Shown piece by piece: positions 2,756-19,908 of a stretch of DNA of 64,000 bases. Numbering within the stretch: position 1 is the stretch's first letter; each line of letters starts with the position of its first letter. This stretch comes from Parazoarcus communis SWub3 = DSM 12120. Lineage in GTDB: Bacteria; Pseudomonadota; Gammaproteobacteria; Burkholderiales; Rhodocyclaceae. The position numbers and the translations under genes were made by a program. Location: contig NZ_QKOE01000001.1 of NCBI RefSeq assembly GCF_003226565.1, positions 620,001 to 684,000 on the forward strand, in the 5' to 3' direction. The notes under the pieces were generated by a model. The model did not search any database. It was given only the letters and a program-made list of their open reading frames with translations, and was not told the origin of the DNA.

Positions 2756-3436
2756 ATGACGCCATTCAAGACCTTCATCACCCTGGCTGCCAGCATCCTT
2801 CCTACCCTGGCCGCTGCCCAGTTCGTTCAGGCACCGCTGCCCTACCCCAGCGCGGCGCTCGAACCTCATATCGATCAGACCACGATGGAGATCCATCATG
2901 GCCGGCATCATGCAGCCTACGTCAATAACCTGAACGCCCAGATCCAGACCTATCCCGAACTGGCCAAGCTGTCGATCGAGGAAGTGCAGGGTCAGATGTC
3001 CAAGTACAACACCGCCGTCCGCAACAACGGAGGCGGTCATTACAACCACGATCTGTTCTGGAAGGTCATGGCACCCGAAGGCCAGCGCGGCACACCCGCC
3101 CCCGCATTGGCGAGTGCAATCAATGCCGCGTTCGGCTCATTGGACGAGATGAAGAAGCGCTTCGATCAAGCGGCGCTGAGTCGCTTCGGGTCCGGCTGGG
3201 CATGGCTGATCGTGACCGCCGACAAGAAGCTTGCGATCACCTCCACCCCCAATCAGGACAACCCGCTGATGGACCTGCCGGGCATCGAGCGCGGCACCCC
3301 CATCCTGGGGCTGGATGTCTGGGAGCACGCCTACTATCTCAAGTACCAGAACAAGCGCGGCGAATATGCCACCAACTGGTGGAACGTGGTGAATTGGAAT
3401 GAGGTCAACGCGCGCTTCGAAGCTGCATCGAAGTAA
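2756..3436 (+). CDS. Exported Mn-type superoxide dismutase
   Basis: Converts superoxide to oxygen and hydrogen peroxide. The 226-residue chain has all four metal ligands of the Fe/Mn family: His47 (MEIHHGRHH), His98 ([10 protein letters not shown]), Asp187 and His191 ([11 protein letters not shown]). Gly at the GGH position and Gln167 in NQDNP are the pattern of Mn-type rather than Fe-type enzymes. Residues 1-21 form a signal peptide (hydrophobic core, then LAAA), so the enzyme should act in the periplasm. That is less usual for this family, where most proteins are cytosolic and periplasmic forms are often Cu/Zn. The start has a good ribosome site (AGGAG). It sits beside a copper locus, and periplasmic superoxide protection there would make sense. 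Confidence 0.9.
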
Positions 3437-3461: not shown

Positions 3462-4052
3462 TCAGGGCCGCAAGGTACGCGTGGGGGCCAGTTCGGCCCC
3501 ACCGATCCGCCGTCCTTGCCGACAGCCTTCGACCTCGAGCGCGCCTTCTTCATCCAGGGCGTGGAGGGTACGGGAGACCGTCTCGATGGTCAGACCTGTG
3601 ATATCCGCAATGTCGCGCAGTCGCGGTAACCTGAAGACCGCACCAGCCGAACCCAGCAGCGCGAGCAAGCCTCCCACGCGCTGATCCGCCCTGCCATTGC
3701 GCAGGGCCAGGATGTCGGCCATGCGTTGCTCGGTCGCTGCGAGCAGGCGCAGCATGCTCTCGCCAAAACGCTCGGCCGGCGCCCCCCAAGGTTCGACCAC
3801 GCACCCCGACAATGCCTGGGCCGTGTAGGTGTAGGCGCCGAACAATAGGGTTTCGGCACCAATCACGTCTCCAGCCAGAGAAAGCCCGGCGAAGGCAGGT
3901 CCGTCGTCTTCGTGCCGATCCAGACGAACGCTACCGGCGACAATGCGCCACGCCTTGCCCCGTTCACCCGCATGATAGATGTACTCCCCTCGCGCGACTT
4001 CCCGCTGCGGGGCACGTGAAGTCCCGTCGGTATTTTGCTGACTCTCTCGCAT
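3462..4052 (-). CDS. Crp/Fnr family transcriptional regulator
   Basis: A 196-residue regulator with an N-terminal cyclic-nucleotide-binding-like beta domain (about residues 15-105, EVARGEYIYHAGERG and LAGDVIGAETLLFG). It ends in a winged HTH (LRDIADITGLTIETVSRTLHAL) of the Fnr type. The N-terminal cysteines that hold the Fnr iron-sulfur cluster are absent, so it resembles DNR/NnrR-type or cAMP-independent members; its signal is unknown. I chose the ATG at 4052; a TTG at 4109 would add 19 residues. It lies downstream of the copper receptor gene on the same strand, and two palindromes precede it. Its 3' end lies 25 bases from the convergent sod end. Confidence 0.8.
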   Translation of the reverse strand: MRESQQNTDGTSRAPQREVARGEYIYHAGERGKAWRIVAGSVRLDRHEDDGPAFAGLSLAGDVIGAETLLFGAYTYTAQALSGCVVEPWGAPAERFGESMLRLLAATEQRMADILALRNGRADQRVGGLLALLGSAGAVFRLPRLRDIADITGLTIETVSRTLHALDEEGALEVEGCRQGRRIGGAELAPTRTLRP

Positions 4053-4136
4053 TTCCTGTCTGTACCCCGGAACAGACGTCCGGGGTGGCTCCTTCAAAGC
4101 GGGGCTCAACCCCAGGGAAATCCGTGTGCGCTCTGC

Positions 4137-4210: not shown

Positions 4211-6286
4211 TCAATCCAGTGCGAACTGTGCCTTCACCCACACATTGCGACCCGGCTCATTGATCCGGGTGTTGGCCGGAAACACGAAACCGGGCAGGGA
4301 TGAACCGGTACGCGACAGATGCTCGGCATAGGTCCGGTCGAACAGGTTGTCGATACCCGCGGTCAGTAACACACCCTTGGCCGCACGCCAGCCGGCATTG
4401 AGCGATACCACCGCAAAGCCCGAGGACGGACCGATGTCCTGACCGTTCATGACGATGTTGCCTGAGCCGATGTCGACACGTTTCTGGTCGGCCACCATGC
4501 GCAACAGACCGCCATAGGAGAACGTGCCATCGTCGTACTCGAGCATCAGCCGGGCCTCCAGGGGCGGCTGCTGGGCCAAGGCGGTATCGTCAGTATCGTT
4601 CTCACCCCGTACCCAAGCCAGCGTCCCGGTGGTGCGCCAGTTGCGGGCAAAGCGCCAGGCCACATCGGCTTCGAGCCCGACCAGGGTAGCGTCGACATTG
4701 CGTACCCGGGTCGGTGCAATCCAGGTCAGCAGCACGTAGTCGCGGACCTTGCCGTAGTAGCCCGACAACGATCCACTCCACGCCCCCTGCTGCCAGTGCG
4801 TGCCAACGTCGAGCTGGGTGGTCTTTTCCGGGCGGATACTCAGGAAGGCGCTGTTGAGCGTGTTCTCATCGCGCAGCAGGCGCTCCCAGTAGTCGGGGAA
4901 GCGTTCCGCATGGCCAAGGCCTGCGTACCAGTTGCCCAGTGCGTACTCGCCTTCGTAGCGCACAAACCCGCTGCGTAGCGTCGCGCGGTCGGTCTCTCCC
5001 CGGGTCCGGTTGACCGGCACCATCATGCACATGCCGTTCATGTACATCCCGGCAACGCAGCGGCGGCCATCCTTGGCGGCATGCTGGTCGATGCGCAGCC
5101 CCGCCACCGTGCGCCCACCATCCGCATCGCGGTACGCCGCCTCACCAAACACGCCGAACTGGTCGAAGCGCATGTCTTCCTCGTACGGCAAGCTGCGGAA
5201 GGTATCGTCCGCGGCATCGCCGCTGGCGCGGTTCATCGCGTTACGGGCGCGATGGATGTCGCGCTTGGTGTCGGCACCCAGGGTGAGCCGCCACGGCTCG
5301 CTGGGGGCAAGCACCACGCCAGCCCGCGCACCAGTGGTGATGCGGTCCGGATTCATCGCCGAAAAACGGTTTGCCAGCGGCTGATCACGCAGGCTGTAGT
5401 TGTCCATCACATGATCGACATAGTTGTAATAGGCCTGCGCCCACACCTTTTCCACCAACGGCGACAGCTTGCGCTGCTCAAACTTCAACGCGATATTCTC
5501 GCGGGCAAAGCGCGACCCATCCATGCCACGGTCGGCATAGGCGGCACGACCATCGCTGCGCGCCATCGACAGCTCGACCGCGGTGTCGGCATCCGGCGTC
5601 CACGCCAGTGCGGCCTGGGTGTTCCAGCGCGTGTAGCGCGAGTGCACCTTGTCGCCATCGCCATCACGATAGTTCTCGGCATGGGCATGGGTGCCGCCCG
5701 CACGCACCTGGAACATCGGCGTGCTGCCGCGCACATCGATGACCTGGTCGTTGCGGCCAAAGCTGCCCACGGTCAGGCTGCCGTCAAGGCGCCAGCCGGC
5801 TTCATCGAGCGGCTTCAGGTCGCGCTCGAACAGCACCGCGCCTGCCGACACCCCAGCCCCGTAGATCACCGTCTGCGGGCCTTTCAGCACTGTTACCCGG
5901 TCATACGATTCGGGATAGACATAGGCCGTTGGCGGGTCCATCCGGCCGCCGCAGCCACCGTAGATCTCCTGACCATCCAGAAAGATGCCCAGCCGCGAAC
6001 CCGACATGCCGCGCAGCACCGGATCGCCATCGGTACCGCCCTTGCGGATCACCGAGAAGCCCGGGATGCTCTTCAGGAAATCCGCGCCATCGTGCGCAGG
6101 AATCGGCTGCCGCGGCGCCTTCGGATCGGTGACCACGGTCAGCGCATCGACGGTGACCGGTGCGGTCACCACGACCGGCGCCAGTCGGTTCTCGGTATCG
6201 GTTTCAGTGGCATAAGCCGCCGGAATCCAGGCACAAGCGATCAGCGCCGCCAGCAGGCTGCACTTCATGGGAGGTTTGATATTCAT
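4211..6286 (-). CDS. oprC: TonB-dependent copper receptor (OprC/NosA family)
   Basis: Outer-membrane beta-barrel that takes up copper with TonB energy. The 691-residue protein has a signal peptide (cut near AAYA, residue 28), a plug with MSGSRLGIFLDGQEIYGGCG and the family signature MDPPTAYVYPESYDRV, and a barrel that ends in a C-terminal FALD. A Met/Cys-rich stretch (VAGMYMNGMCMMVP) in the barrel is a plausible copper-binding loop. OprC of Pseudomonas aeruginosa and NosA of P. stutzeri belong to this family; NosA supplies copper for nitrous oxide reductase. I chose the ATG at 6286, preceded by TGGAAG; a longer reading frame upstream runs over the preceding membrane gene in the wrong frame. 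It is the last transporter gene of a long minus-strand copper operon. Confidence 0.92.
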   Translation of the reverse strand: MNIKPPMKCSLLAALIACAWIPAAYATETDTENRLAPVVVTAPVTVDALTVVTDPKAPRQPIPAHDGADFLKSIPGFSVIRKGGTDGDPVLRGMSGSRLGIFLDGQEIYGGCGGRMDPPTAYVYPESYDRVTVLKGPQTVIYGAGVSAGAVLFERDLKPLDEAGWRLDGSLTVGSFGRNDQVIDVRGSTPMFQVRAGGTHAHAENYRDGDGDKVHSRYTRWNTQAALAWTPDADTAVELSMARSDGRAAYADRGMDGSRFARENIALKFEQRKLSPLVEKVWAQAYYNYVDHVMDNYSLRDQPLANRFSAMNPDRITTGARAGVVLAPSEPWRLTLGADTKRDIHRARNAMNRASGDAADDTFRSLPYEEDMRFDQFGVFGEAAYRDADGGRTVAGLRIDQHAAKDGRRCVAGMYMNGMCMMVPVNRTRGETDRATLRSGFVRYEGEYALGNWYAGLGHAERFPDYWERLLRDENTLNSAFLSIRPEKTTQLDVGTHWQQGAWSGSLSGYYGKVRDYVLLTWIAPTRVRNVDATLVGLEADVAWRFARNWRTTGTLAWVRGENDTDDTALAQQPPLEARLMLEYDDGTFSYGGLLRMVADQKRVDIGSGNIVMNGQDIGPSSGFAVVSLNAGWRAAKGVLLTAGIDNLFDRTYAEHLSRTGSSLPGFVFPANTRINEPGRNVWVKAQFALD

Positions 6287-6318
6287 GCGTATTGCTTCCA
6301 TAGGGATGAGAAAGAAAA

Positions 6319-7062
6319 TCAGATCAACAGCAGGCGCCGGATGCCCAGCAGGACCAACACCGCCCCCGCGCCACCGGCCAGCCAGCGATGCAGCCAGGCG
6401 CGGCCGGACAGCAGACGGGCGCCAAGGGTGCCGAATAGAGGGACCAGCAGCAGCAGTGGCGTCACCGCGGCGCCCAGCCCGAACGCCAGCCCGTGACCGG
6501 CCCCGGCCAACGCACTGCCGGACAAGGAGCAGATGCCCAGCAGCCAACCCAGCGGAGCACAGGGCGTGAGGCTGAGCGACAGCCCCAGTAGAAAAGGCGG
6601 TAGCCGGGCACCACTTGATGGACGACGGCAGCCGGCGCTCATGCCGGCGCTGGGGCGCTGACGATGAAACTGCAGGGGGCGGGCACTTGTCGCTGCGTCG
6701 GCCGTGCGCGGCTGGGCCGACCTGAGCAGTTGGTAAATCAGGACGCCGCCTGCCAGACAACTCGCCAGACCGATTGCAAGATGCCCGATGCCGCCAGAGA
6801 GCCAGCCGGCCAGCCGCGCGCCCATCCATCCGGCAAGCAGCCCGAGCAGGCCATAGGCCAGTACCCGCCCACCCAGAAACAGCCAGGTGTCGCGCATTGC
6901 AAGGTCATGCCCACGGCCCCGACCCAGCGCCCAGGTGCCCAGAAAAGGCAGGCAGGTCACGGTGCAGGCCGTCAGCCCCATCGACAAGCCCAGGGTCATC
7001 GACCCGAACAGCCCCAAGGGCAGCGCCGACAGGCTGCCCGCGACCGGCAGCTCACCGCTCAT
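6319..7062 (-). CDS. TauE/SafE (UreH/DsbD-like) integral membrane protein
   Basis: A 247-residue inner-membrane protein with about six hydrophobic helices in two similar halves. Each half has a Cys-Pro style element: TACTVTCLPFLG near residue 35 and SLTPCAPLG near residue 170. This is the pattern of the sulfite exporter TauE/SafE, UreH and CcdA/DsbD superfamily, whose members move thiol electrons or transport ions, including metals. The function here is probably copper transport or copper-linked redox work, judged only from the neighbours. Its ATG overlaps the polyferredoxin stop codon (ATGA) and has a strong AAGGAGG site. The copper receptor gene starts 32 bases downstream. Confidence 0.75.
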   Translation of the reverse strand: MSGELPVAGSLSALPLGLFGSMTLGLSMGLTACTVTCLPFLGTWALGRGRGHDLAMRDTWLFLGGRVLAYGLLGLLAGWMGARLAGWLSGGIGHLAIGLASCLAGGVLIYQLLRSAQPRTADAATSARPLQFHRQRPSAGMSAGCRRPSSGARLPPFLLGLSLSLTPCAPLGWLLGICSLSGSALAGAGHGLAFGLGAAVTPLLLLVPLFGTLGARLLSGRAWLHRWLAGGAGAVLVLLGIRRLLLI

Positions 7063-8117
7063 GAGGCCTCCTTGCCGGGTTGACGGCGCACGATGCGGAC
7101 CGGCTTGACGGTGCCATCCGGCAGTTCTCCCGCCACCCGGCCTCGGTAGTAGTCGCGCGAGGACCGGAACACGGGAATCGGACCGAACCGGATCGAGATC
7201 ACGTCGTCATCCGGGCAGAACTCGGCACAACGTCCGCACAGGGTGCAGTCATCGTGATAGGCGCGCCGGCCGTGCTCGGTATGAATCTCATGGATATCCA
7301 TCGGGCACGCCTTCGCGCACACCCCGCACTTGTCGCATTTGTCGTGGCGACGCTTGACCAGCCGGGTCAGGGAGAAACGCCGGAATGCCGCGTTCATCGC
7401 CAGCATCGGGCAGATCCGGCAGAACGGCTGCCGCACCGCCAGCGCCGCAATCATCACGAAGCCGAACAGGGTATTGGCCAGCGCCCCCAGCGCAAAGGTC
7501 CAGCCGTCACCCAGCCGGATGGCCAGTTCGCTGCTGTCTGCGGTCAACAAGGTGGTCGCGATCCGCGACGGACAAACGTCGCAGTAGGGGTTGCCAAAGC
7601 TGTGCGGCGTCACCCCCAAGCCTGTCAGCAAGGGCAGCAGGAACACCAGCCCGAGCAACACCAGCCATTTCACCGGACGCACCCGCCCGGTTGCCGCTGG
7701 ATCCAGGGTATGCAGGGGCCGGCCGAATCGACGACCCAGTTTGTGGGTCCATTCCTGCAGGGTCCCGAGCGGGCAGACCCAGCCACAGAAAGCCTTGCCC
7801 AACACAAGGAAGAACGCAGCAAACGATGCCAGCGTAAACAGCAGCGGCAACACGATCTTCAGGCTGACCTCCTGAGCCCGCACCAGTGCTTCGCCCACGC
7901 GGTGATGCATCTGGTGTTGCAGCGGCACCAGCACGCAGTAGCCGCCGTTCTGCTGGTCATAAGCGCAAGACAGCGCAGGCAGGGCATTCGAGATTTTGTC
8001 TGCGGCATAGTGACCCACCAGACTGCCGCCCCAGACCGTCAGGAACAGCATCACCAACTGCACATACAGCCGCACCCGCCCCAGCGTCGGAAACAGCGCT
8101 TTCATCGCCTCAGCCAT
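7059..8117 (-). CDS. Membrane polyferredoxin (NapH/CcoG-like, multiple 4Fe-4S)
   Basis: A 352-residue inner-membrane electron-transfer protein. It has four hydrophobic helices (near residues 15-35, 85-105, 150-172 and 205-230). Between helices it carries two pairs typical of NapH/NosR proteins (CGWVCPLGT and CRICP). A C-terminal region with two 4Fe-4S motifs follows (CDKCGVCAKACP and CTLCGRCAEFCP). Relatives pass electrons from quinol across the membrane; CcoG, a related polyferredoxin, has been reported to reduce Cu(II) to Cu(I). Lying inside a copper-uptake operon, this protein may do the same, which is inference. The start overlaps the previous stop by 8 bases and the stop overlaps the next start by 4, so the four genes are translationally coupled. 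Confidence 0.85.
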   Translation of the reverse strand: MAEAMKALFPTLGRVRLYVQLVMLFLTVWGGSLVGHYAADKISNALPALSCAYDQQNGGYCVLVPLQHQMHHRVGEALVRAQEVSLKIVLPLLFTLASFAAFFLVLGKAFCGWVCPLGTLQEWTHKLGRRFGRPLHTLDPAATGRVRPVKWLVLLGLVFLLPLLTGLGVTPHSFGNPYCDVCPSRIATTLLTADSSELAIRLGDGWTFALGALANTLFGFVMIAALAVRQPFCRICPMLAMNAAFRRFSLTRLVKRRHDKCDKCGVCAKACPMDIHEIHTEHGRRAYHDDCTLCGRCAEFCPDDDVISIRFGPIPVFRSSRDYYRGRVAGELPDGTVKPVRIVRRQPGKEAS

Positions 8118-8967
8118 GTTCCCGCCTCCTGTTCCTCAACAAGGGCAAGGCGGCGACCATGCCCAAGACCATGAAACCCACGCCATAGCCCAGGCTGCGG
8201 TTGCGCATCGGGTCGGGGCCATACTGGCCGTTGAACGCGGAGACATGCTCGAGATCACCACTACGATGCGTGGTGCTGACGACAAACCCGGCGGAGGTGC
8301 GACGCCCACCTTGCGCGATTTCCTGCGGATCGAGGTCATCCGGGAAGCGGATCGCCACCTCGCCCTGGGTATCGGTCAGCGCCCGGATGCGGCTGCCCCG
8401 TGCTGTCTCAAGCACCACCGCAACCCCGGCCAGCGGCACGCCGTCGAAGTACACCGAAAACAGCCGGCGTTCGCCCTCCTTATAGGGGCCACGATTGGGC
8501 AGGCGGTCGGGAAGCAGTTCCAGCCCGCCACGGTGCTGCTTCAACATGATCTCGGGCGAGGGACCGGGCTTGGGAAAGAACCACCACGTCGCGGCAGTCA
8601 GCACACGCTGGCCTTCGCGCATCGTGCCACGCAGCAGGTGGTGATGCCCCTCGGTGACCTGCCCGGCACTCCAGCTGCCGTCCGCCTCGCGCCTTGCCTG
8701 CGCGGGGGAGGCGTCGGCGTCGGGGCCGAAAACCTCGATCACACCGCCCTCGAACCCAATGACGCGGAAGCGCACACGCCCATCCTCACCGGGGCGGCCC
8801 GGCTCGATCAGCGGCGCGCGAGTCCAGTCGGTCGCACTGCTACGCGCTGCCGTCGGACGCCCCGGGTGCTCACCTTCGTGACCGGCACCCGACAATGGCT
8901 GCAAGAGCACCGTCGCCATCATCAGCCCCGCCCAGTTGCGCACGCGCGGCCTGCGGTCAGAACACAT
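8110..8967 (-). CDS. Periplasmic protein with His-rich mature N-terminus and C-terminal membrane anchor, unknown function
   Basis: I do not recognise a named family with certainty; it weakly resembles DUF4198-type metal-linked periplasmic proteins. From the ATG at 8967 it has 285 residues: a signal peptide (RNWAGLMMATVLLQPLSG), a mature start GHEGEHPG that could bind metal, a beta-rich middle with a TDTQGEVAIRFPDDL segment typical of Ig-like or carboxypeptidase-regulatory folds, and a C-terminal helix (LGYGVGFMVLGMVAALPLL) followed by basic residues. That makes it a periplasmic domain tethered to the inner membrane. The start overlaps the TonB receptor's last codons by 11 bases and the stop overlaps the polyferredoxin start, so it is made together with them. 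Confidence 0.6.
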   Translation of the reverse strand: MCSDRRPRVRNWAGLMMATVLLQPLSGAGHEGEHPGRPTAARSSATDWTRAPLIEPGRPGEDGRVRFRVIGFEGGVIEVFGPDADASPAQARREADGSWSAGQVTEGHHHLLRGTMREGQRVLTAATWWFFPKPGPSPEIMLKQHRGGLELLPDRLPNRGPYKEGERRLFSVYFDGVPLAGVAVVLETARGSRIRALTDTQGEVAIRFPDDLDPQEIAQGGRRTSAGFVVSTTHRSGDLEHVSAFNGQYGPDPMRNRSLGYGVGFMVLGMVAALPLLRNRRREHG

Positions 8968-10891
8968 AACGGCCGGATACATAGGCAAACCTCGCGGCGG
9001 GTTCGGTGGCCGAGCCGTAGTTTGACGGCGCACGGGTGTTGAAGACGTTGTCCACGCCGATGGCTGCAGTCAATGCCTCAGTCACCCGGTAACTCAACTT
9101 GAGGTCGGTAGCGCCAAAATTGCTGTTGAACGCCGGCGCATCCGTGCTGCGGTCGTTCGGGTCCGAGTTGTAGTAGTCAAAGTGGTAGCGGGCCTGCACG
9201 TCGGCAGACAGCCGGCCTGCGTCATAACGCACGCCGAGGCGCGCAATCTGCCGGCTGCGGTCGCGCAGGCGCTCGTCGCTGCTGGCATCCCGGGCATCGA
9301 TGTACTCCCAGCCCCCTTGCAGGAACCAGCGAGCATCCAGTTGCCAGGCCAGGGAGAGTTCGGCGCCACGCACCCGGGCGTCGGACACATTGGTGTAGAC
9401 ACTGCGTACCGTGATCGCAGCCGGATCACCACTTTCCCGCGGTTTGCGCACCGTGGTGATGAGATCACTCACACGGCTGTCGTATGCGACGAGTTCGGCG
9501 CGCAGGCGCGCGCCTGCGTAGCCAAAGGCGATCTCCCAGCTGCGGTTTTGCTCGGGTTTCAGATCGGGATTACCGACGATCAGCGAACGTCCGCCACGCA
9601 CAAATCGGGAGTACTGCTCAAGCACGGAAGGCGCACGGAAGGCCTCTCCATAGCCCAGTCTGACCGACCAGGGCCCCGGCTGCCACGAGACGGACAGGCG
9701 TGGATTGGTGGTGCTGCCAAAGTCATCGAAGCGGTCGTGGCGAACGCCCAGCAAGGCACGCCAGTCGCCAGCGATGACCCATTCGTCCTGCAACAGCAAG
9801 TGATCGTTGACGCGTGTTGCATTCCGGCTGTTCAGGCTGACATCCAGCTCGTCGCGGCTGCTGCCCGCCCCCAGCACCAGGGTATGCGCTCCCCAGCTAC
9901 GGGTGTAGCGCGCCGTTGCCTGGTGCTGCACGAAATCGGTTGTCTCGATGGTCGGATAGGCGCGGGTTGTCTTTGCATCCGAATGCCCCCGCGACAGATC
10001 GACATCGAGCACACCGCCGGCCACAAGCCCCTGATAGCCCAGTTGGACAAAATCCCGGCGCTCTCGCTCATAGGCGTCAAACGGCACTGCCACCGGTCTC
10101 GACGGCGGTGCCGCAGCCAGCAAGCCGGGGCCGGTATCATTCTGGTCCAGGTGCTCGATACGCCAGTTGATGCGGTGGTCGGATCCGACCCTGGCATAAC
10201 CGTCATACGCGTAGTAGCGCTCGTCGATGCGGTTCAGGTCCGCAGTGGGACTGTCGCGGTCGTAACGGAACAAACCGCGGTCACGATGCTCGACGCTGAC
10301 CCGGTGGGCGCTGACGTCCCCGCCATACTCGACGCTCGCACCAGTGATGGCTGTCTCGCGCTGACCGTGGGCGGAACGCCCCCAGGTACTCGCGACACGC
10401 CCACCCGGACCGCTCCCCAATGCCGGCTTGCGGGTGATCACATTCACCACGCCACCGCTTGCGTCCGCACCGTACAGCGCGGACATCGGACCACGCACGA
10501 TCTCGATGCGCTCCACATCTTCCACCGCAAACAGGTTCAGGTTGCGGCTGCCGTACTTGCTCGTCCGCCGCTGCCCGTCCACCAGTAGCAGGGTTGCCGA
10601 ACTGCTCAGGCCACGCATGGTGACCGTCGAGTTTGCACCATTGGGGCGGGCATCCACCCCAACCGCCAGCTTGAGCGCCTCGGTCACGCTGGTCCCGGTG
10701 TAGGCCTGCAGGTCGCGCTCACCCACCACCTGTACCGCAGCCTGCACATCGGCAATGGACTGCGCCCGCCCGCTCGCGGTGTAGACCACCACATCACCCA
10801 GCACCGTGTCCTCCGCCAGCACGGGGCTCATACCGAACACGGGCACCGTAAGTGCGACCAGCGCCTTCAACTTCATGCTTCGCTTCTTCAT
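8957..10891 (-). CDS. TonB-dependent outer-membrane receptor
   Basis: A 644-residue receptor with a signal peptide (KALVALTVPVFGMSPVLA), a plug domain (AVGVDARPNG, MRGLSSSATLLLVDGQRR, GPMSALYGADASGGVVNVITRK) and a barrel ending in SGRYVF with the usual terminal Phe. It belongs to the FepA/CirA/BtuB class; the substrate cannot be read from sequence. It heads a block of overlapping genes that ends with the copper receptor, so a copper complex or chalkophore is possible. The start has a good ribosome site (AAGGAAG). The gap before it, about 145 bases, holds a hairpin at 10941-10959 with no T-run. Confidence 0.85.
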   Translation of the reverse strand: MKKRSMKLKALVALTVPVFGMSPVLAEDTVLGDVVVYTASGRAQSIADVQAAVQVVGERDLQAYTGTSVTEALKLAVGVDARPNGANSTVTMRGLSSSATLLLVDGQRRTSKYGSRNLNLFAVEDVERIEIVRGPMSALYGADASGGVVNVITRKPALGSGPGGRVASTWGRSAHGQRETAITGASVEYGGDVSAHRVSVEHRDRGLFRYDRDSPTADLNRIDERYYAYDGYARVGSDHRINWRIEHLDQNDTGPGLLAAAPPSRPVAVPFDAYERERRDFVQLGYQGLVAGGVLDVDLSRGHSDAKTTRAYPTIETTDFVQHQATARYTRSWGAHTLVLGAGSSRDELDVSLNSRNATRVNDHLLLQDEWVIAGDWRALLGVRHDRFDDFGSTTNPRLSVSWQPGPWSVRLGYGEAFRAPSVLEQYSRFVRGGRSLIVGNPDLKPEQNRSWEIAFGYAGARLRAELVAYDSRVSDLITTVRKPRESGDPAAITVRSVYTNVSDARVRGAELSLAWQLDARWFLQGGWEYIDARDASSDERLRDRSRQIARLGVRYDAGRLSADVQARYHFDYYNSDPNDRSTDAPAFNSNFGATDLKLSYRVTEALTAAIGVDNVFNTRAPSNYGSATEPAARFAYVSGRYVF

Positions 10892-11036
10892 GTCTTCCTT
10901 CCAGACCTGGAGCCGGGGTCAGACAACGCCCGGCCGGGCACCTGCCCAATGCGGGCAGGCAAACGTGCAACGCACGACGACAGGCAGACGCCCGCCTTGC
11001 GGCGTGGCATCCGTTCGTCATCAGATGAGAAGAAGA

Positions 11037-11426
11037 TCAGGCGAGGACGGGAGGGCCGCGGGGATGCGGAGCGAGGCGATACGGTTGGGATTCAGGTACG
11101 GTCGAAGCGGCGCAAGGCGGTGTGTCGCACAAGGCCGTGCCGCAGAACCCGCAACCGAACTCGGGCGGCGGCAAGGCAATGCTGGCTGCGAGCAGGATGC
11201 ACAGCGGACAATGCGGTACGGCAAGCGGGTCACTGGGCGCACCGCCGTCCAGCGGCTCGGCGATACGGACAACGCCCGCCGAGGTACAGACTTCCGACCA
11301 GCGCACACCACCCTCACCCAGCGCGTCGGCAACACGGGCGATCGTCGGCGCAAGGGCGCCCAGCAGGATGGCCAAGGCGGCAATCCTGGCAAACAGCAGG
11401 CGGGTGGCGGTCGAAAACATGGTCAT
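11037..11426 (-). CDS. DUF2946 family protein, Cys-rich (copper locus)
   Basis: A 129-residue protein with an N-terminal signal or membrane segment (LLFARIAALAILLGALAPTI) and the DUF2946 pattern: VCTSAGV, then HCPLC. Its Cys-rich tail (CGFCGTALC, then PPC) could bind metal. DUF2946 genes are often found near copper transport genes in proteobacteria, but their role is not established. It sits between the PCuAC gene (42 bases upstream) and the TonB receptor on the same strand. The start may be the ATG at 11426 or the one two codons later. A second member of the family lies at 12137-12535. Confidence 0.7.
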   Translation of the reverse strand: MTMFSTATRLLFARIAALAILLGALAPTIARVADALGEGGVRWSEVCTSAGVVRIAEPLDGGAPSDPLAVPHCPLCILLAASIALPPPEFGCGFCGTALCDTPPCAASTVPESQPYRLAPHPRGPPVLA

Positions 11427-11467
11427 GCCGACTGGCGGGACGTGCCCGCCGTCAGATCAGACTGGAA

Positions 11468-11944
11468 TCAATGTTTGTGCTTCATTTCGCCGTGTCCCTG
11501 CCCCATTGGCGCGGCACTGTTCAACGGGCGCGCATCTGCCTTCAGCTCCAGCGTCTCGCGCTTGCCGTCGGCGCCTTCGACCACGATCGATACCGGCACG
11601 ACATCACCGACCTTCACCTGCTGCTTCAGGTCGATCAGCATCACGTGATAGCCACCGGGCTTGAGCTCGACCGCCTGCCCGGCCGGCAGCGCCAGCCCGG
11701 GGATGGCGCGCATCTTCATGATCTCGCCGTCCATCACCATCTCGTGGATCTCGACCACACCGGCAACCGGCGAACTGGCGGACACCAGACGGGCATCCGC
11801 CGGCGAGGTGATGCGCATGAAGGCACCGGTGGCCTTTTGCTGGGCAACGGTGGCACGCACCCAGGGATCACTGACCGACACATCGGCCTGGGCAGCGGTG
11901 GACACGAGGGCGGCGACCAGCGCCGAAGCGAACAGGGCTTTCAT
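11468..11944 (-). CDS. Periplasmic copper(I) chaperone PCuAC
   Basis: A 158-residue exported protein that binds Cu(I) and hands it to copper enzymes such as cytochrome oxidase. It has a signal peptide (MKALFASALVAALVSTAAQA) and the family copper site: HEMVMDGEIMKM, then about 20 residues later GGYHVMLI. A His/Met-rich tail (GQGHGEMKHKH) may be a second site, as in many PCuAC proteins. The ATG at 11944 follows a strong AAGGAG; an upstream frame extension lacks support. It lies between two DUF2946 genes in the copper operon. Confidence 0.93.
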   Translation of the reverse strand: MKALFASALVAALVSTAAQADVSVSDPWVRATVAQQKATGAFMRITSPADARLVSASSPVAGVVEIHEMVMDGEIMKMRAIPGLALPAGQAVELKPGGYHVMLIDLKQQVKVGDVVPVSIVVEGADGKRETLELKADARPLNSAAPMGQGHGEMKHKH

Positions 11945-12136
11945 TTGAGGCTCCTTGCAGCAGTGATGAAACGGAAACCCGCCCGCCCCGGAAGGACGGA
12001 CGAATGCCATGGTATTGACGGACTCAGCACAGCCGGGTCACGTCAGCCAACAGGACAAAAAGGAATCAGATTGAGCTTGCCCGACAGGGCAATGGCGGCG
12101 GACGCAGGGAAAGCCCCCCGCGTCAGCGGGTGCGGA

Positions 12137-12535
12137 TCAGGCCGCCAGGGGCGGTGCGCGCGGGTGGGACGCCGCCCAGGCGAAGAGCGGGCGCGGCGCA
12201 AGATAGAAAAGCGGGGGCAACAACAGATCGGGATGCACAACGCCAAGGCCGGCTGAATCTAGCGGCGGCAGCGCAAACGCCCCGGCATGGGGACAGCAGT
12301 AGGGACAACTGGCCATGTCGGCCATATCACCCTGCCCTTGTTCGCGCTCGGCGGCATCGACCGCTACCCACTGCATGCCCTGGGAGGTGCAGATTTCCAC
12401 CAGGGCCAGGCCATTGGCCTCGAACACGGGCACCATCGCCTGGCTGATTGCCGGCGCCAGCGCACTGAGCAGCATCGCGAACAGCGCGATCGAGGCCATC
12501 AGGCGTTGGCGAAGGGCGGAGCGAAAGGTCTGCAC
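12137..12535 (-). CDS. DUF2946 family protein, second copy
   Basis: About 132 residues from a GTG at 12535; an ATG at 12499 and a longer GTG at 12595 are alternatives, and no strong ribosome site decides between them. The N-terminus is a basic-then-hydrophobic segment (MASIALFAMLLSALAPAIS). The family pattern follows: EICTSQGMQWV, then CPYCCPHAGAF with three Cys and a His. It shares its architecture with the protein at 11037-11426, so the two are paralogues flanking PCuAC. It would be the first gene of the copper operon. The role is unknown; metal handling at the membrane is an inference. Confidence 0.65.
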   Translation of the reverse strand: MQTFRSALRQRLMASIALFAMLLSALAPAISQAMVPVFEANGLALVEICTSQGMQWVAVDAAEREQGQGDMADMASCPYCCPHAGAFALPPLDSAGLGVVHPDLLLPPLFYLAPRPLFAWAASHPRAPPLAA

Positions 12536-12637: not shown

Positions 12638-13942
12638 TCAGGCGGCGACTTCGGCGCCCAACAAGCGTGCGACCGCCAGCGGGTTGGAGGGAAAGTAGAA
12701 GTGCACATACGACGCGGTCAGACGCCCGCTCCGATACACCGCCTCGCCCTCACGCCCGTCTGGCGTACGTGCGCGCACCAGCGCCGGCAGCGGCGTCTCG
12801 CTTTTTGAGTAGTGGAAGGTATGACCGGTCAGCCGCCCTTCCGGCAGCTCGACTTCCTGCATGCCGAGCGCGGCCAGACGTTTCTGCATCACCGAACGCC
12901 CCGGGAGCAAACCACCAAAGCGGTGTTCGACCCCGGCCTTGTCCACCACGCACTCGAACAGGCTCATCATGCCACCGCATTCGGCTAGCACCGGTTTGCC
13001 TGCATCCACATGGGCCCGCAGGCTCGCCCAGAATGCCTGGCTGGCGCCCAACACTTCACCGTGAAGTTCGGGATAGCCGCCCGGCAGCCACACCGCGTCG
13101 CAGGCCGGCAGGGCATCACCCGCGAGCGGCGAAAAGAAGCACAGCCTGGCCCCCAGCTCGCTCAGCGTGTCGAGATTGGCCGGGTAGATGAAGCCGTAGG
13201 CCGCGTCGCGCGCCACGGCCACCGTCCGCCCTGCCAGCGCAGGCTCGACCACGGCAGGACGCTGATCGACAAAGGCCACGGCCGCCGGCAGTTCAGCCGC
13301 ACCGGTCTGCGCCAGGCTGTCAGCCAGCCGGTTGAGCCGCGCGTCCAGATCCTCGATCTCGGCCGCCTGCATCAAGCCCAGATGGCGCTCGGGCAGCGCA
13401 GCCTCGGCGTCGCGCATCACCGCGCCAAAGAAACGCATGCCGGGTGGCAGTGCCTCGCGCAACATGTCGGCATGACGCGCACTCCCAACGTGGTTGGCCA
13501 GCACCCCGGCAAAGGGCAGCCCCGGCCGGAAAGTCGCCAGCCCATGTGCGATTGCGCCAAAGGTCTGTGCCATTGCCCGGGCGTCAATCACTGCCATCAC
13601 CGGCAAGCCGAAACGGCAGGCAATGTCGGCACCGGACGGCTTGCCGTCGTAAAGCCCCATCACCCCTTCAACCAGGATCACATCGGCCTCGCCTGCGGCA
13701 AGGTACAACCGGTGGGCAATGTCAGCCTCGCCACACATGCCGAGGTCGGCGTTATAGACCGGGGCACCACTGGCCACCGCATGGATCTGCGGGTCAAGAA
13801 AATCCGGCCCGGACTTGAACACCCGTACGCGGCGTCCCAGGCGGGCATGCATGCGCGCAAGCGCAGCAGTGATGGTGGTCTTGCCCTGGCCGGAAGCCGG
13901 TGCAGCGATGAACAGGGCGGGACAGTGTCGAACGGTCGTCAT
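12638..13942 (-). CDS. cobB: Cobyrinate a,c-diamide synthase (CobB/CbiA)
   Basis: Amidates the a and c side chains of the corrin ring with glutamine and ATP. The 434-residue protein has an N-terminal ATP-binding domain of the MinD/BioD fold (APASGQGKTTITAAL, then KSGPDFLDP). A class I glutamine amidotransferase domain follows, with the nucleophile in LAECGGMMSLFE and the His in TGHTFHYSKSE. The start is the ATG at 13942; the frame continues upstream over a hairpin without likeness to the family. It is the last gene of the riboswitch-controlled btuB operon, though a long inverted repeat separates it from cobA. Its presence with cobU, cobT, cobS and cobC indicates salvage or partial synthesis of B12. 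Confidence 0.93.
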   Translation of the reverse strand: MTTVRHCPALFIAAPASGQGKTTITAALARMHARLGRRVRVFKSGPDFLDPQIHAVASGAPVYNADLGMCGEADIAHRLYLAAGEADVILVEGVMGLYDGKPSGADIACRFGLPVMAVIDARAMAQTFGAIAHGLATFRPGLPFAGVLANHVGSARHADMLREALPPGMRFFGAVMRDAEAALPERHLGLMQAAEIEDLDARLNRLADSLAQTGAAELPAAVAFVDQRPAVVEPALAGRTVAVARDAAYGFIYPANLDTLSELGARLCFFSPLAGDALPACDAVWLPGGYPELHGEVLGASQAFWASLRAHVDAGKPVLAECGGMMSLFECVVDKAGVEHRFGGLLPGRSVMQKRLAALGMQEVELPEGRLTGHTFHYSKSETPLPALVRARTPDGREGEAVYRSGRLTASYVHFYFPSNPLAVARLLGAEVAA

Positions 13943-13962
13943 GGTCAATCCAGATTCAATGA

Positions 13963-14017
13963 GGTGTGTGGCTAAGCCCCGGTGCCGGACGACAGCAGCG
14001 TGGCTTAGCCACACACC
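13963..14017 (-). repeat. 16-bp inverted repeat in the cobA-cobB gap
   Basis: Two perfectly complementary 16-base arms, 13963-13978 and 14002-14017, are separated by 23 bases. The core of the arms is GTGTGGCTAAGCC. The transcript would form a strong stem-loop 21 bases before cobB. No T-run follows, so it is not a standard intrinsic terminator. It may be a processing or attenuation element. Confidence 0.6.
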
Positions 14018-14040
14018 CGGAAACGTCAATTCAGCATGCG

Positions 14041-14883
14041 TCAGCGTGCAGGGCCATGAACCACGGTACAGCCGGCATGAGGCGGATGTGCCGCCTCGTC
14101 GGCCTCGGCCGCAAACCATGCCAGCCGCGGGTACAAACCGACCACACCGCCAACCACGGTCAGCGCTGGCGGGCGGATGCCAGCCCCCTTCACCCGCTCG
14201 GCCAGCGTTGCCAGATCGGCGGTCACCACGCGCTGCGCTGCCGTGGTTCCACGCTCGACCACGCCCGCTGGCGTGGTCGCGGACAGACCGTGGGCAACCA
14301 GCTGATCACAGATCTCCGCCAGCCGGGAAATGCCCATGTAGATCACCAGGGTCTGGCCCGGGCGCGCCAGCATCGGCCAGTCGAGATCGAGCGCCCCATC
14401 CTTCAGGAAGCCGGTGGTAAACACCACCGATTGGGCGTGGTCACGATGGGTCAGGGGTATGCCGGCATAAGCGGCAATGCCGGCGGCGGCCGTCACCCCG
14501 GGGACCACCTCGACGGTAACGCCGGCCTCGACCAGCACCTCCATTTCTTCGCCCCCACGGCCAAAGATGAAAGGATCACCGCCCTTCAGCCTCACCACCC
14601 GCTTGCCCTCACCCGCGAGCCGCACCAGCAGGCGGTTGATCTCGTCCTGTGGCAGCGTGTGGTCGGCCGCCTTCTTGCCCACATAGATGCGCTCTGCACT
14701 TTCAGGCGCCAGGCCAACAATGGCGGGACTGACCAGATTGTCATACACCACGACATCCGCACCCTGTACCAGGCGCGCGCCGCGCAGCGTCAATAGTTCG
14801 GGATCACCCGGCCCTGCGCCTACGAGATAGACATGACCGGCCTGCGGCCCCGGACGGGCCACCTTGATGCTGGGCAGACTCAT
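14041..14883 (-). CDS. cobA: Uroporphyrinogen-III C-methyltransferase
   Basis: Methylates uroporphyrinogen III twice with S-adenosylmethionine to give precorrin-2, the branch point to B12 and siroheme. The 280-residue protein has the family signatures VYLVGAGPGDPELLTLRG near the start and VVRLKGGDPFIFGRGGEE near residue 90. It also has GVTAAAGIAAYAGIPLTHR and the PGQTLVIYMG element. It is a stand-alone CobA without the CysG dehydrogenase domain. The ATG at 14883 follows GGAG. The neighbours btuF and cobB place it in corrinoid synthesis rather than siroheme. Confidence 0.95.
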   Translation of the reverse strand: MSLPSIKVARPGPQAGHVYLVGAGPGDPELLTLRGARLVQGADVVVYDNLVSPAIVGLAPESAERIYVGKKAADHTLPQDEINRLLVRLAGEGKRVVRLKGGDPFIFGRGGEEMEVLVEAGVTVEVVPGVTAAAGIAAYAGIPLTHRDHAQSVVFTTGFLKDGALDLDWPMLARPGQTLVIYMGISRLAEICDQLVAHGLSATTPAGVVERGTTAAQRVVTADLATLAERVKGAGIRPPALTVVGGVVGLYPRLAWFAAEADEAAHPPHAGCTVVHGPAR

Positions 14884-19486: not shown

Positions 19487-19616
19487 CGGAGACACTCCCC
19501 TGGCCACGCCGCACGTCCCCGCACGATCGTGGCTGATCGCAAACTGGAAGGCTTCTGGGGAAAAGACAGGCACACTCGTCACCGCCACCCCGCGGCACTT
19601 CCGCTCATTTGCATCC

Positions 19617-19826
19617 GGGCCGGTATCCGGGCTCGTGAGCTGTGCCGGTCGGATCACGACCGGACTCAGCACATCGCCTTCCCGGAAGGTCGTCCTTCCA
19701 GTGGCTTCTCGATGCGCCTTGCGCTCACTTACCGTTGCGGGGGCAGCACAGGCCTTGCGCGCCATGGGCGACGCTCACCTGTTTCCCGTTTAACCCACCG
19801 GCAGGAACCGCCGGCGAGCACCACGA
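19617..19826 (-). promoter_or_regulatory. Cobalamin (AdoCbl) riboswitch
   Basis: Read on the minus strand, the leader before btuB has the conserved elements of the cobalamin riboswitch in order. These are GGGTTAAACGGGAA and ACAGGTGAG in the 5' half, CCCCCGCAACGGTAA (complement at 19729-19743), the B12 box GCCACTGGA (complement at 19697-19705), and the closing segment AGCCCGGATACCGGCC near 19618-19634. About 130 bases remain between the aptamer and the btuB start for the expression platform. Bound coenzyme B12 should switch btuB and the genes behind it off. Confidence 0.95.
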
Positions 19827-19908
19827 ACGCGCTACCCCTTTCGGAGCAGTGGGGGCGGATGATACCTTGTCCGGCTTCTTCTTGCAGTGCAAAAAACCAG
19901 ACCTTCCA

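Follow-up and report, generated by a model that had tools for sequence, protein, structure and literature searches.

How copper is freed from its carrier after passing the outer membrane is an open question, and an operon of Parazoarcus communis SWub3 (= DSM 12120) may bear on it. We analyzed 64,000 nucleotides (nt) of this organism's 5.0 Mb genome (RefSeq assembly GCF_003226565.1, contig NZ_QKOE01000001.1, positions 620,001 to 684,000; hereafter the window), in which eight minus-strand open reading frames (ORFs) run from an in-frame GTG at 12535 to the end of the last gene at 4211. A first-pass annotation had described these genes, in this order, as a close-packed copper-uptake operon with its own membrane polyferredoxin. 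ORF positions and family searches confirmed the order, and the operon itself held up as well, its core being kept in other genomes. Because the arrangement recurs in this way it is not due to chance; the operon is genuine and conserved, is linked to copper, and varies a kind of operon already known. The closest known system, CruR-CrtA-CrpH of Bordetella pertussis, follows the same logic with another reductase. We think it rather likely that the operon acquires copper under the control of two nascent-peptide copper switches, with the polyferredoxin reducing imported Cu(II). If so, it would supply a second answer to the question of copper release beside CrpH, based on iron-sulfur chemistry. The features discussed below are as follows.

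12137..12535, minus: CruR-a, a DUF2946 leader ORF before the PCuAC gene, with CPYC, 45 residues and RAPP (Pfam 66.6 bits; motif and spacing)
12128..12219, minus: C>G bubble at the 3' end of CruR-a, maximum C-G 0.24 at 12178, a possible Rho site by analogy with PMC9426467
11468..11944, minus: PCu(A)C periplasmic copper chaperone (PF04314, 128.6 bits, cut-off 29.4; sole match in the genome)
11037..11426, minus: CruR-b, a second DUF2946 leader ORF, before the import unit, with CPLC, 46 residues and RGPP (Pfam 33.7 bits; motif)
11023..11101, minus: C>G bubble (C-G 0.33), the window's strongest on the minus strand in a bubble scan, a possible Rho site
8957..10891, minus: TonB-dependent receptor of family F4, under the OprC and BtuB model cut-offs in profile searches
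8110..8982, minus: periplasmic protein with predicted DUF4198 fold, a likely signal peptide, His residues on the N-terminal side and a C-terminal membrane anchor, without the family's Glu-His pair (start 8967 or 8982)
7059..8117, minus: polyferredoxin (Fer4_5, Fer4) with four predicted membrane helices, a cytoplasmic 2x[4Fe-4S] domain, and CxxxCP and CxxCP sites inside
6319..7062, minus: DsbD_2 membrane protein with C33, C37 and C168 (PF13386, 59.2 bits)
4211..6286, minus: OprC/NosA TonB-dependent copper receptor (TIGR01778, 703 bits, cut-off 472; start 6286 or 6301)
3462..4109, minus: Crp/Fnr-type regulator about 100 nt past oprC, a possible operon member (homologues also near the unit in loci L013-L015 and L099)

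The receptor and anchored-protein genes overlap by 11-26 nt and the DsbD_2 and OprC genes are separated by 17-32 nt (starts partly uncertain in both cases), with spacings of -8 nt from anchored protein to polyferredoxin and -4 nt from polyferredoxin to DsbD_2. Longer gaps follow the leader ORFs, 192 nt after CruR-a and 145 nt after CruR-b.

The conserved core and its proteins

Scanning genome contigs for the polyferredoxin produced 507 relatives, of which we kept 80, drawn from Beta-, Gamma-, Alpha- and Zetaproteobacteria, Magnetococcales and Campylobacterota. Our set of 89 loci (numbered with the prefix L) combines 79 of these, the window and nine others from a genome search; L026 was left out as a copy of L019, and L054 and L058, 97% identical, were both counted. 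Genes were called as conservation-scored ORFs, and gaps between them, taken from the first possible start, are lower bounds. A DUF4198-like gene lies upstream of the polyferredoxin in 84/89 loci, a DsbD_2 gene downstream in 85/89 and both in 80/89. Some TonB-dependent receptor is present in 75/89, and 69/89 have the core with a receptor at most three genes away; among the 20 without this full set, at least five (L028, L051, L072, L082, L093) have the polyferredoxin less than 1.1 kb from a contig end. ExbB/ExbD-type genes occur within about eight genes in 48/89 loci.

Polyferredoxin relatives at E ≤ 1e-20 were found in 10 of 61 genomes, one of which also carries a distant paralog. Among 369 genomes drawn from the class, 15 have a match at E ≤ 1e-60, which exceeds 440 bits in 13 and is only the distant paralog in two (the organism's own genome is included in both counts). 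Twelve other genomes of the class sample have a close relative; in the ten whose loci were examined the three-gene core is always present (in L115 through a weak DsbD_2 match to a short ORF), with a receptor in nine. Identity to the window's polyferredoxin is 74% in Denitromonas halophila and 73-74% in three congeneric genomes.

The receptors near this core are exchanged between families (30 receptors of F0, 30 of F1, 8 of F4 and 7 of F5, among others). F0 and F1 receptors precede the core, and those of F4, the window's type (8 loci), stand before or after it; in the PDB, the window's own F4 receptor is matched best by CirA and BtuB. PCuAC accompanies the unit in 7/89 loci and OprC-like receptors of at least 250 bits do so in 5/89, so that the co-occurrence of polyferredoxin with OprC and PCuAC, which the annotation had made the touchstone of its proposal, holds only in part: the core is conserved, OprC and PCuAC are occasional. 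TIGR01778 scores above cut-off in 4 of 10 polyferredoxin-bearing relative genomes, the window being the one case with such a match next to the unit. The portable unit is the trio of DUF4198-like protein, polyferredoxin and DsbD_2, usually with a TonB receptor, and not OprC with PCuAC.

Hydropathy and the charge rule predict four helices for the polyferredoxin, with its N- and C-termini inside. An alignment of 39 diverse members shows as invariant C51, C61, H68 and H72 (first outer loop), C179 and C182 (second outer loop) and, inside, C111, C115, C233, C236 and eight ferredoxin Cys. Of 90 cluster members, including the L096 sister paralog described below, 88 have the outer-loop pattern; it is missing only from L082, a fragment at a contig end, and L103, whose gene is split. 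In an alignment, C51, C61, H68, C179 and C182 are absent from E. coli NapH, from one of the organism's own CcoG proteins and from another of its own polyferredoxins. The protein scores 73.6 bits against the NapH/MauN model TIGR02163 (cut-off 213) and 57.1 bits against the NosR model NF046105 (cut-off 1000). The CcoG model TIGR02745 (cut-off 316.7) identifies two CcoG proteins elsewhere in the genome (517 and 465 bits), and the window's polyferredoxin does not appear among its matches there at E ≤ 0.001; we therefore rejected the idea that it is CcoG.

The protein encoded just upstream, which the annotation had called an unknown anchored periplasmic protein, can be placed by its predicted structure. 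A Foldseek search with the model (mean predicted local distance difference test, pLDDT, 85.1) returned Zcp (9mhl, 1.7e-9, template-modeling (TM) scores 0.47/0.57), whose PDB entry title names Zn, Cu and Co, and a DUF4198 protein with bound Ni (9gcb, 4.1e-7, TM 0.41/0.52). On this model the protein has a DUF4198-type fold; its DUF4198 Pfam score, 17.4 bits, is under the gathering score of 34. At least two His within 50 residues past the likely signal are found in 74 of 82 DUF4198-like members, and a C-terminal hydrophobic anchor in 72. The window's DUF4198-like protein is only 33-35% identical to those of its genus relatives, compared with 74% for the polyferredoxin. The gene following the polyferredoxin, originally labeled TauE/SafE-like, instead matches DsbD_2 (PF13386, cut-off 24.9), and its cysteines are nearly universal: C33 in 82/83 members, C37 and C168 in 83/83.

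Leader peptides and the metal

The two DUF2946 genes, which the annotation counted among the operon's eight, look like regulatory leaders and not parts of the copper pathway. In Bordetella, CruR is a DUF2946 leader ORF whose CxxC senses copper (Roy et al. 2022, PMC9426467). Its RAPP C-terminus, 45 residues from that motif, is required for expression, probably via ribosome arrest; Rho terminates transcription between CruR and the next gene, and a C>G bubble served as the mark of Rho action (PMC9426467). Both window ORFs score above the DUF2946 cut-off of 23.7, and the interval from CxxC to C-terminal motif is 45 residues in CruR-a and 46 in CruR-b, whose RGPP is one residue off the motif. They also share CruR's placement (first position, long following gap, C>G bubble), CruR-b being first for the import unit only. 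Because of the motif, its spacing and the position we read both as regulatory leader ORFs; with the bubbles, these features led us to reject the DUF2946 proteins as structural copper carriers. By analogy with CruR, the operon is probably switched by two copper-sensing leader peptides.

We scanned for bubbles in 78-nt windows, 0.08% of which reach C-G 0.25 on the window's minus strand. The CruR-b bubble is the highest and longest on that whole strand, and the CruR-a bubble peaks at 0.24. At 13 CruR-type ends of other loci the values range from 0.18 to 0.35, some unremarkable for their locus. A CruR-type ORF directly precedes the unit's receptor in L013-L015 (window's genus), L024 (Denitromonas halophila), L066, L079 and L099, and also in L052, there without CxxC; in L038 TonB/ExbB genes intervene. 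The order CruR-PCuAC-CruR-import unit is repeated in L013, L014, L015 and L038 (in the last with TonB/ExbB genes ahead of the receptors), an arrangement that would, by the same analogy, put PCuAC behind one switch and the import unit behind two in series. In L052, from the Solemya velum symbiont, two CruR-like leaders (6578-6964 and 13898-14284) keep RAPP and lack CxxC, one standing before the unit and the other before an OprC-like receptor.

To place the unit among metals, we compared marker genes across 49 genomes (165 Mb) with the 1.0 Mb around polyferredoxin genes; the 50 test loci, out of 80, were picked by eye, mostly for long flanks, after the gene table had been inspected. DUF2946 (hidden Markov model built from 14 checked seeds) had 5 of 21 matches near the polyferredoxin (expected 0.13), Csp1 6 of 12 (expected 0.07) and NosL 10 of 40, in five loci (expected 0.24), although these ratios overstate independence because the genomes are related and NosL is paired. 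The matches were confirmed in locus DNA, with 3 of the 21 DUF2946 matches under the curated cut-off; the identity of Csp1 follows PDB 5fjd (1.5e-20). By their taxa the Csp1 cases (four Gallionella, Ferrigenium or Sideroxydans and two Nitrosomonadales) and the NosL loci (4/5 Rhodocyclaceae) represent few lineages. The CruR cases come from Beta- and Alphaproteobacteria, plus the Solemya velum symbiont without CxxC. The 10 polyferredoxin-bearing relatives have 11 DUF2946 matches, nine of them no more than 10 kb from the polyferredoxin (eight in the window's genus, one in genome G050) and two not; three of these genomes have no DUF2946. Over the 89 loci, CruR marks 10, PCuAC 7, OprC-like receptors 5, Csp1 7 and NosL 7.

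Markers of other metals behaved differently. Among the matches listed in the 49 genomes, none of 40 strong FeoB matches (>150 bits) was near the polyferredoxin, nor was any of 22 NikR matches, two with coordinates in a locus range having proved not to be NikR there. Upstream of the receptor in 69 loci there was no excess of Fur boxes (mean best 10.8 of 19 versus 10.6 in shuffled sequence; five at 13, none at 14), by a consensus-based score run without a positive control. We rejected iron on the FeoB and Fur-box results and nickel on that for NikR. Cobalt or B12 uptake came into consideration from the cob genes and riboswitch next door, and was rejected after a check covering the window's CobA and CobB homologues, which occur near the unit in one of 89 loci, the window itself. 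The cobalamin riboswitch (19602-19840, minus, 86 bits) lies upstream of the cob genes. The last of these to be read, cobB, ends 102 nt ahead of the CruR-a start, so that read-through from cob into the copper operon is possible. Copper uptake as the role of the operon in this organism is well supported, and we hold it with considerable confidence.

Electron flow and a sister gene set

We picture the operon working as follows. When copper is short, ribosomes would stall on the RAPP and RGPP ends of CruR-a and CruR-b and keep Rho off, allowing the downstream genes to be made; copper bound by the nascent leader's CxxC would end stalling and let Rho stop transcription, as in Bordetella. The two TonB receptors would import copper or copper chelates, and the anchored DUF4198-fold protein would receive the cargo. 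The polyferredoxin would pass electrons from its cytoplasmic 4Fe-4S domain to the periplasmic Cys/His sites and reduce Cu(II) to freed Cu(I). The DsbD_2 protein may keep the polyferredoxin thiols reduced or hand on Cu(I), and PCuAC would deliver copper to cuproenzymes.

A hint on the electron source comes from a sister gene set: a DUF4198-like gene, a paralogous polyferredoxin (~32% identity), HGD-D (PF06050, 325 bits in L022) and a BadF-type ATPase (PF01869, 177 bits). It is found at L022:4840-14110, L108-L111 (L108 and L109 one genus) and L096:1-6848 (Sulfuricurvum, cut at the contig end). The DUF4198-like gene precedes and HGD-D follows the polyferredoxin in all six loci; the ATPase follows in the five uncut ones, a receptor is present in 4/6 and DsbD_2 in 3/5. 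HGD-D/BadF-type pairs spend ATP to generate electrons of very low potential in the cytosol. With such a pair present, the simplest reading is outward flow with reduction as its purpose, and a cytosolic electron source is hinted at instead of the quinol first suggested. We lean slightly toward electrons moving outward to the cargo in the window's system too, and the sister set is possibly an ATP-driven reductive uptake system. More tentatively, the two could belong to an undescribed class of TonB uptake in which low-potential electrons from the cytoplasm, wired through the inner membrane, reduce the imported metal, with a polyferredoxin class for copper and an ATP-driven HGD-D/BadF (double-cubane type) sister class; the receptors would be exchangeable and the DUF4198-polyferredoxin-DsbD_2 core the engine. 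The sister set would then join an ATP-driven low-potential reductase to TonB uptake, a link we did not find in the open-licence literature.

Other explanations and known systems

A number of findings speak against this picture of copper acquisition with Cu(II) reduction under CruR-type control. Any copper marker (CruR, PCuAC, OprC-like, Csp1 or NosL) occurs in only 28/89 stretches examined. Among 82 DUF4198-like proteins the window's alone lacks the Glu-His pair, which the other 81 have, and a characterised DUF4198 protein gains most stability from Ni and hardly any from Cu (PMC12537917). In Caulobacter, DUF4198 with a PepSY reductase serves iron (PMC11870441), and DUF2946 is not always found with copper, CC2720 lying beside czr genes (PMC4176598). 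Some CruR ends have weak bubbles (0.18 in L013; 0.22 in L024 and 0.24 in L099, matched by 2-3% of windows there), and bubbles may partly be a by-product of a proline-rich protein end. The AlphaFold model of the polyferredoxin is moderate (mean pLDDT 75.6) and poor in the key outer loop, and Foldseek found no PDB match for it. A promoter scan was empty, which says little because 0.2 hits were expected by chance.

Several of these points would suit a unit that reduces metal chelates in general (iron, nickel, cobalt or copper, depending on the receptor) and came under copper control in certain lineages only, this one included. The swapped receptor families, the 61/89 loci without a copper marker, which leave room for other metals, the Ni and Fe associations of DUF4198 and the cobalamin genes just upstream all favor such a unit; the enrichment of copper markers, the absence of strong FeoB (among the matches listed) and NikR, the lack of a Fur-box excess and the confinement of CobA/CobB homologues to the window make it unlikely in our view. 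We consider it improbable that the polyferredoxin and DsbD_2 instead provide electrons that hold thiols at the copper sites of PCuAC, Sco-like proteins or cuproenzymes in the reduced state while the metal is inserted: DsbD_2 does have an invariant Cys pattern, which we take to be reminiscent of CcdA, and thioredoxin-like genes (families c9 and c15) lie near some loci, but PCuAC accompanies the unit in just 7 loci, against 84 for the DUF4198-like gene and 75 for a receptor. That the operon sequesters or detoxifies copper would agree with the storage protein Csp1 near seven members, yet TonB receptors import, storage is compatible with import, and the CruR-controlled Bordetella operon is shut off by copper (PMC9426467), leaving copper tolerance very improbable.

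Copper acquisition with reduction by the polyferredoxin can then be set beside systems already described. CruR-CrtA-CrpH likewise has a DUF2946 leader ORF, a TonB copper receptor and then a membrane protein, CrpH, and the authors speculate that CrpH is a periplasmic copper reductase (PMC9426467, PMC12914433, PMC13038864). However, the Bordetella protein is a PepSY_TM protein with haem-binding motifs, in place of which the window has polyferredoxin, DUF4198-like protein and DsbD_2; none of its eight operon proteins matches PepSY at E ≤ 0.1. The window also has two serial leaders with PCuAC between them. The Fur-controlled PepSY/DUF2271/DUF4198 system of Caulobacter (CCNA_03155-03159) similarly encodes DUF4198 with a proposed membrane metal reductase, but concerns iron and uses a flavin and PepSY electron path, with no polyferredoxin mentioned in the portions seen (PMC11870441, PMC3751524). 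The cupric reductase CcoG, as described in PMC13038864, is a membrane polyferredoxin tied to copper, but reduces it in the cytoplasm for cbb3 oxidase, and the window's protein has 352 residues against 481. NapH, NosR and MauN share membrane helices, CxxxCP-type sites and 2x[4Fe-4S] with it, whereas its scores fall far under their cut-offs and the periplasmic Cys/His set is missing in E. coli NapH, the one aligned. Neither 'ferredoxin' nor '4Fe' occurs in the main text of any of the three Bordetella papers, 'DsbD' is absent from the two checked, and a copper-proteome survey of Betaproteobacteria omitted TonB receptors (PMC6769254). A polyferredoxin-TonB copper unit is undescribed in the open-licence literature searched, supplements being outside that scope, and CruR's own tables may list it; the same literature yielded no biochemical work on the unit.

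If copper is the cargo, the core would serve to mark copper supply in denitrifiers and iron oxidisers, in which copper affects the extent of N2O reduction.

Two further gene associations were seen. Near the unit, a BNR-repeat protein (c8, 10 loci) that carries the motifs HSCECC and CPHHGG recurs with a thioredoxin-like protein (c9, 7 loci), as at L017:1508-5842 and in L018, L024, L044, L055, L074 and L088, often beside a further TonB receptor. In the window, a superoxide-dismutase-like gene recognised by eye (2756-3436, plus), with a signal-like N-terminus, is convergent to the Crp-type regulator.

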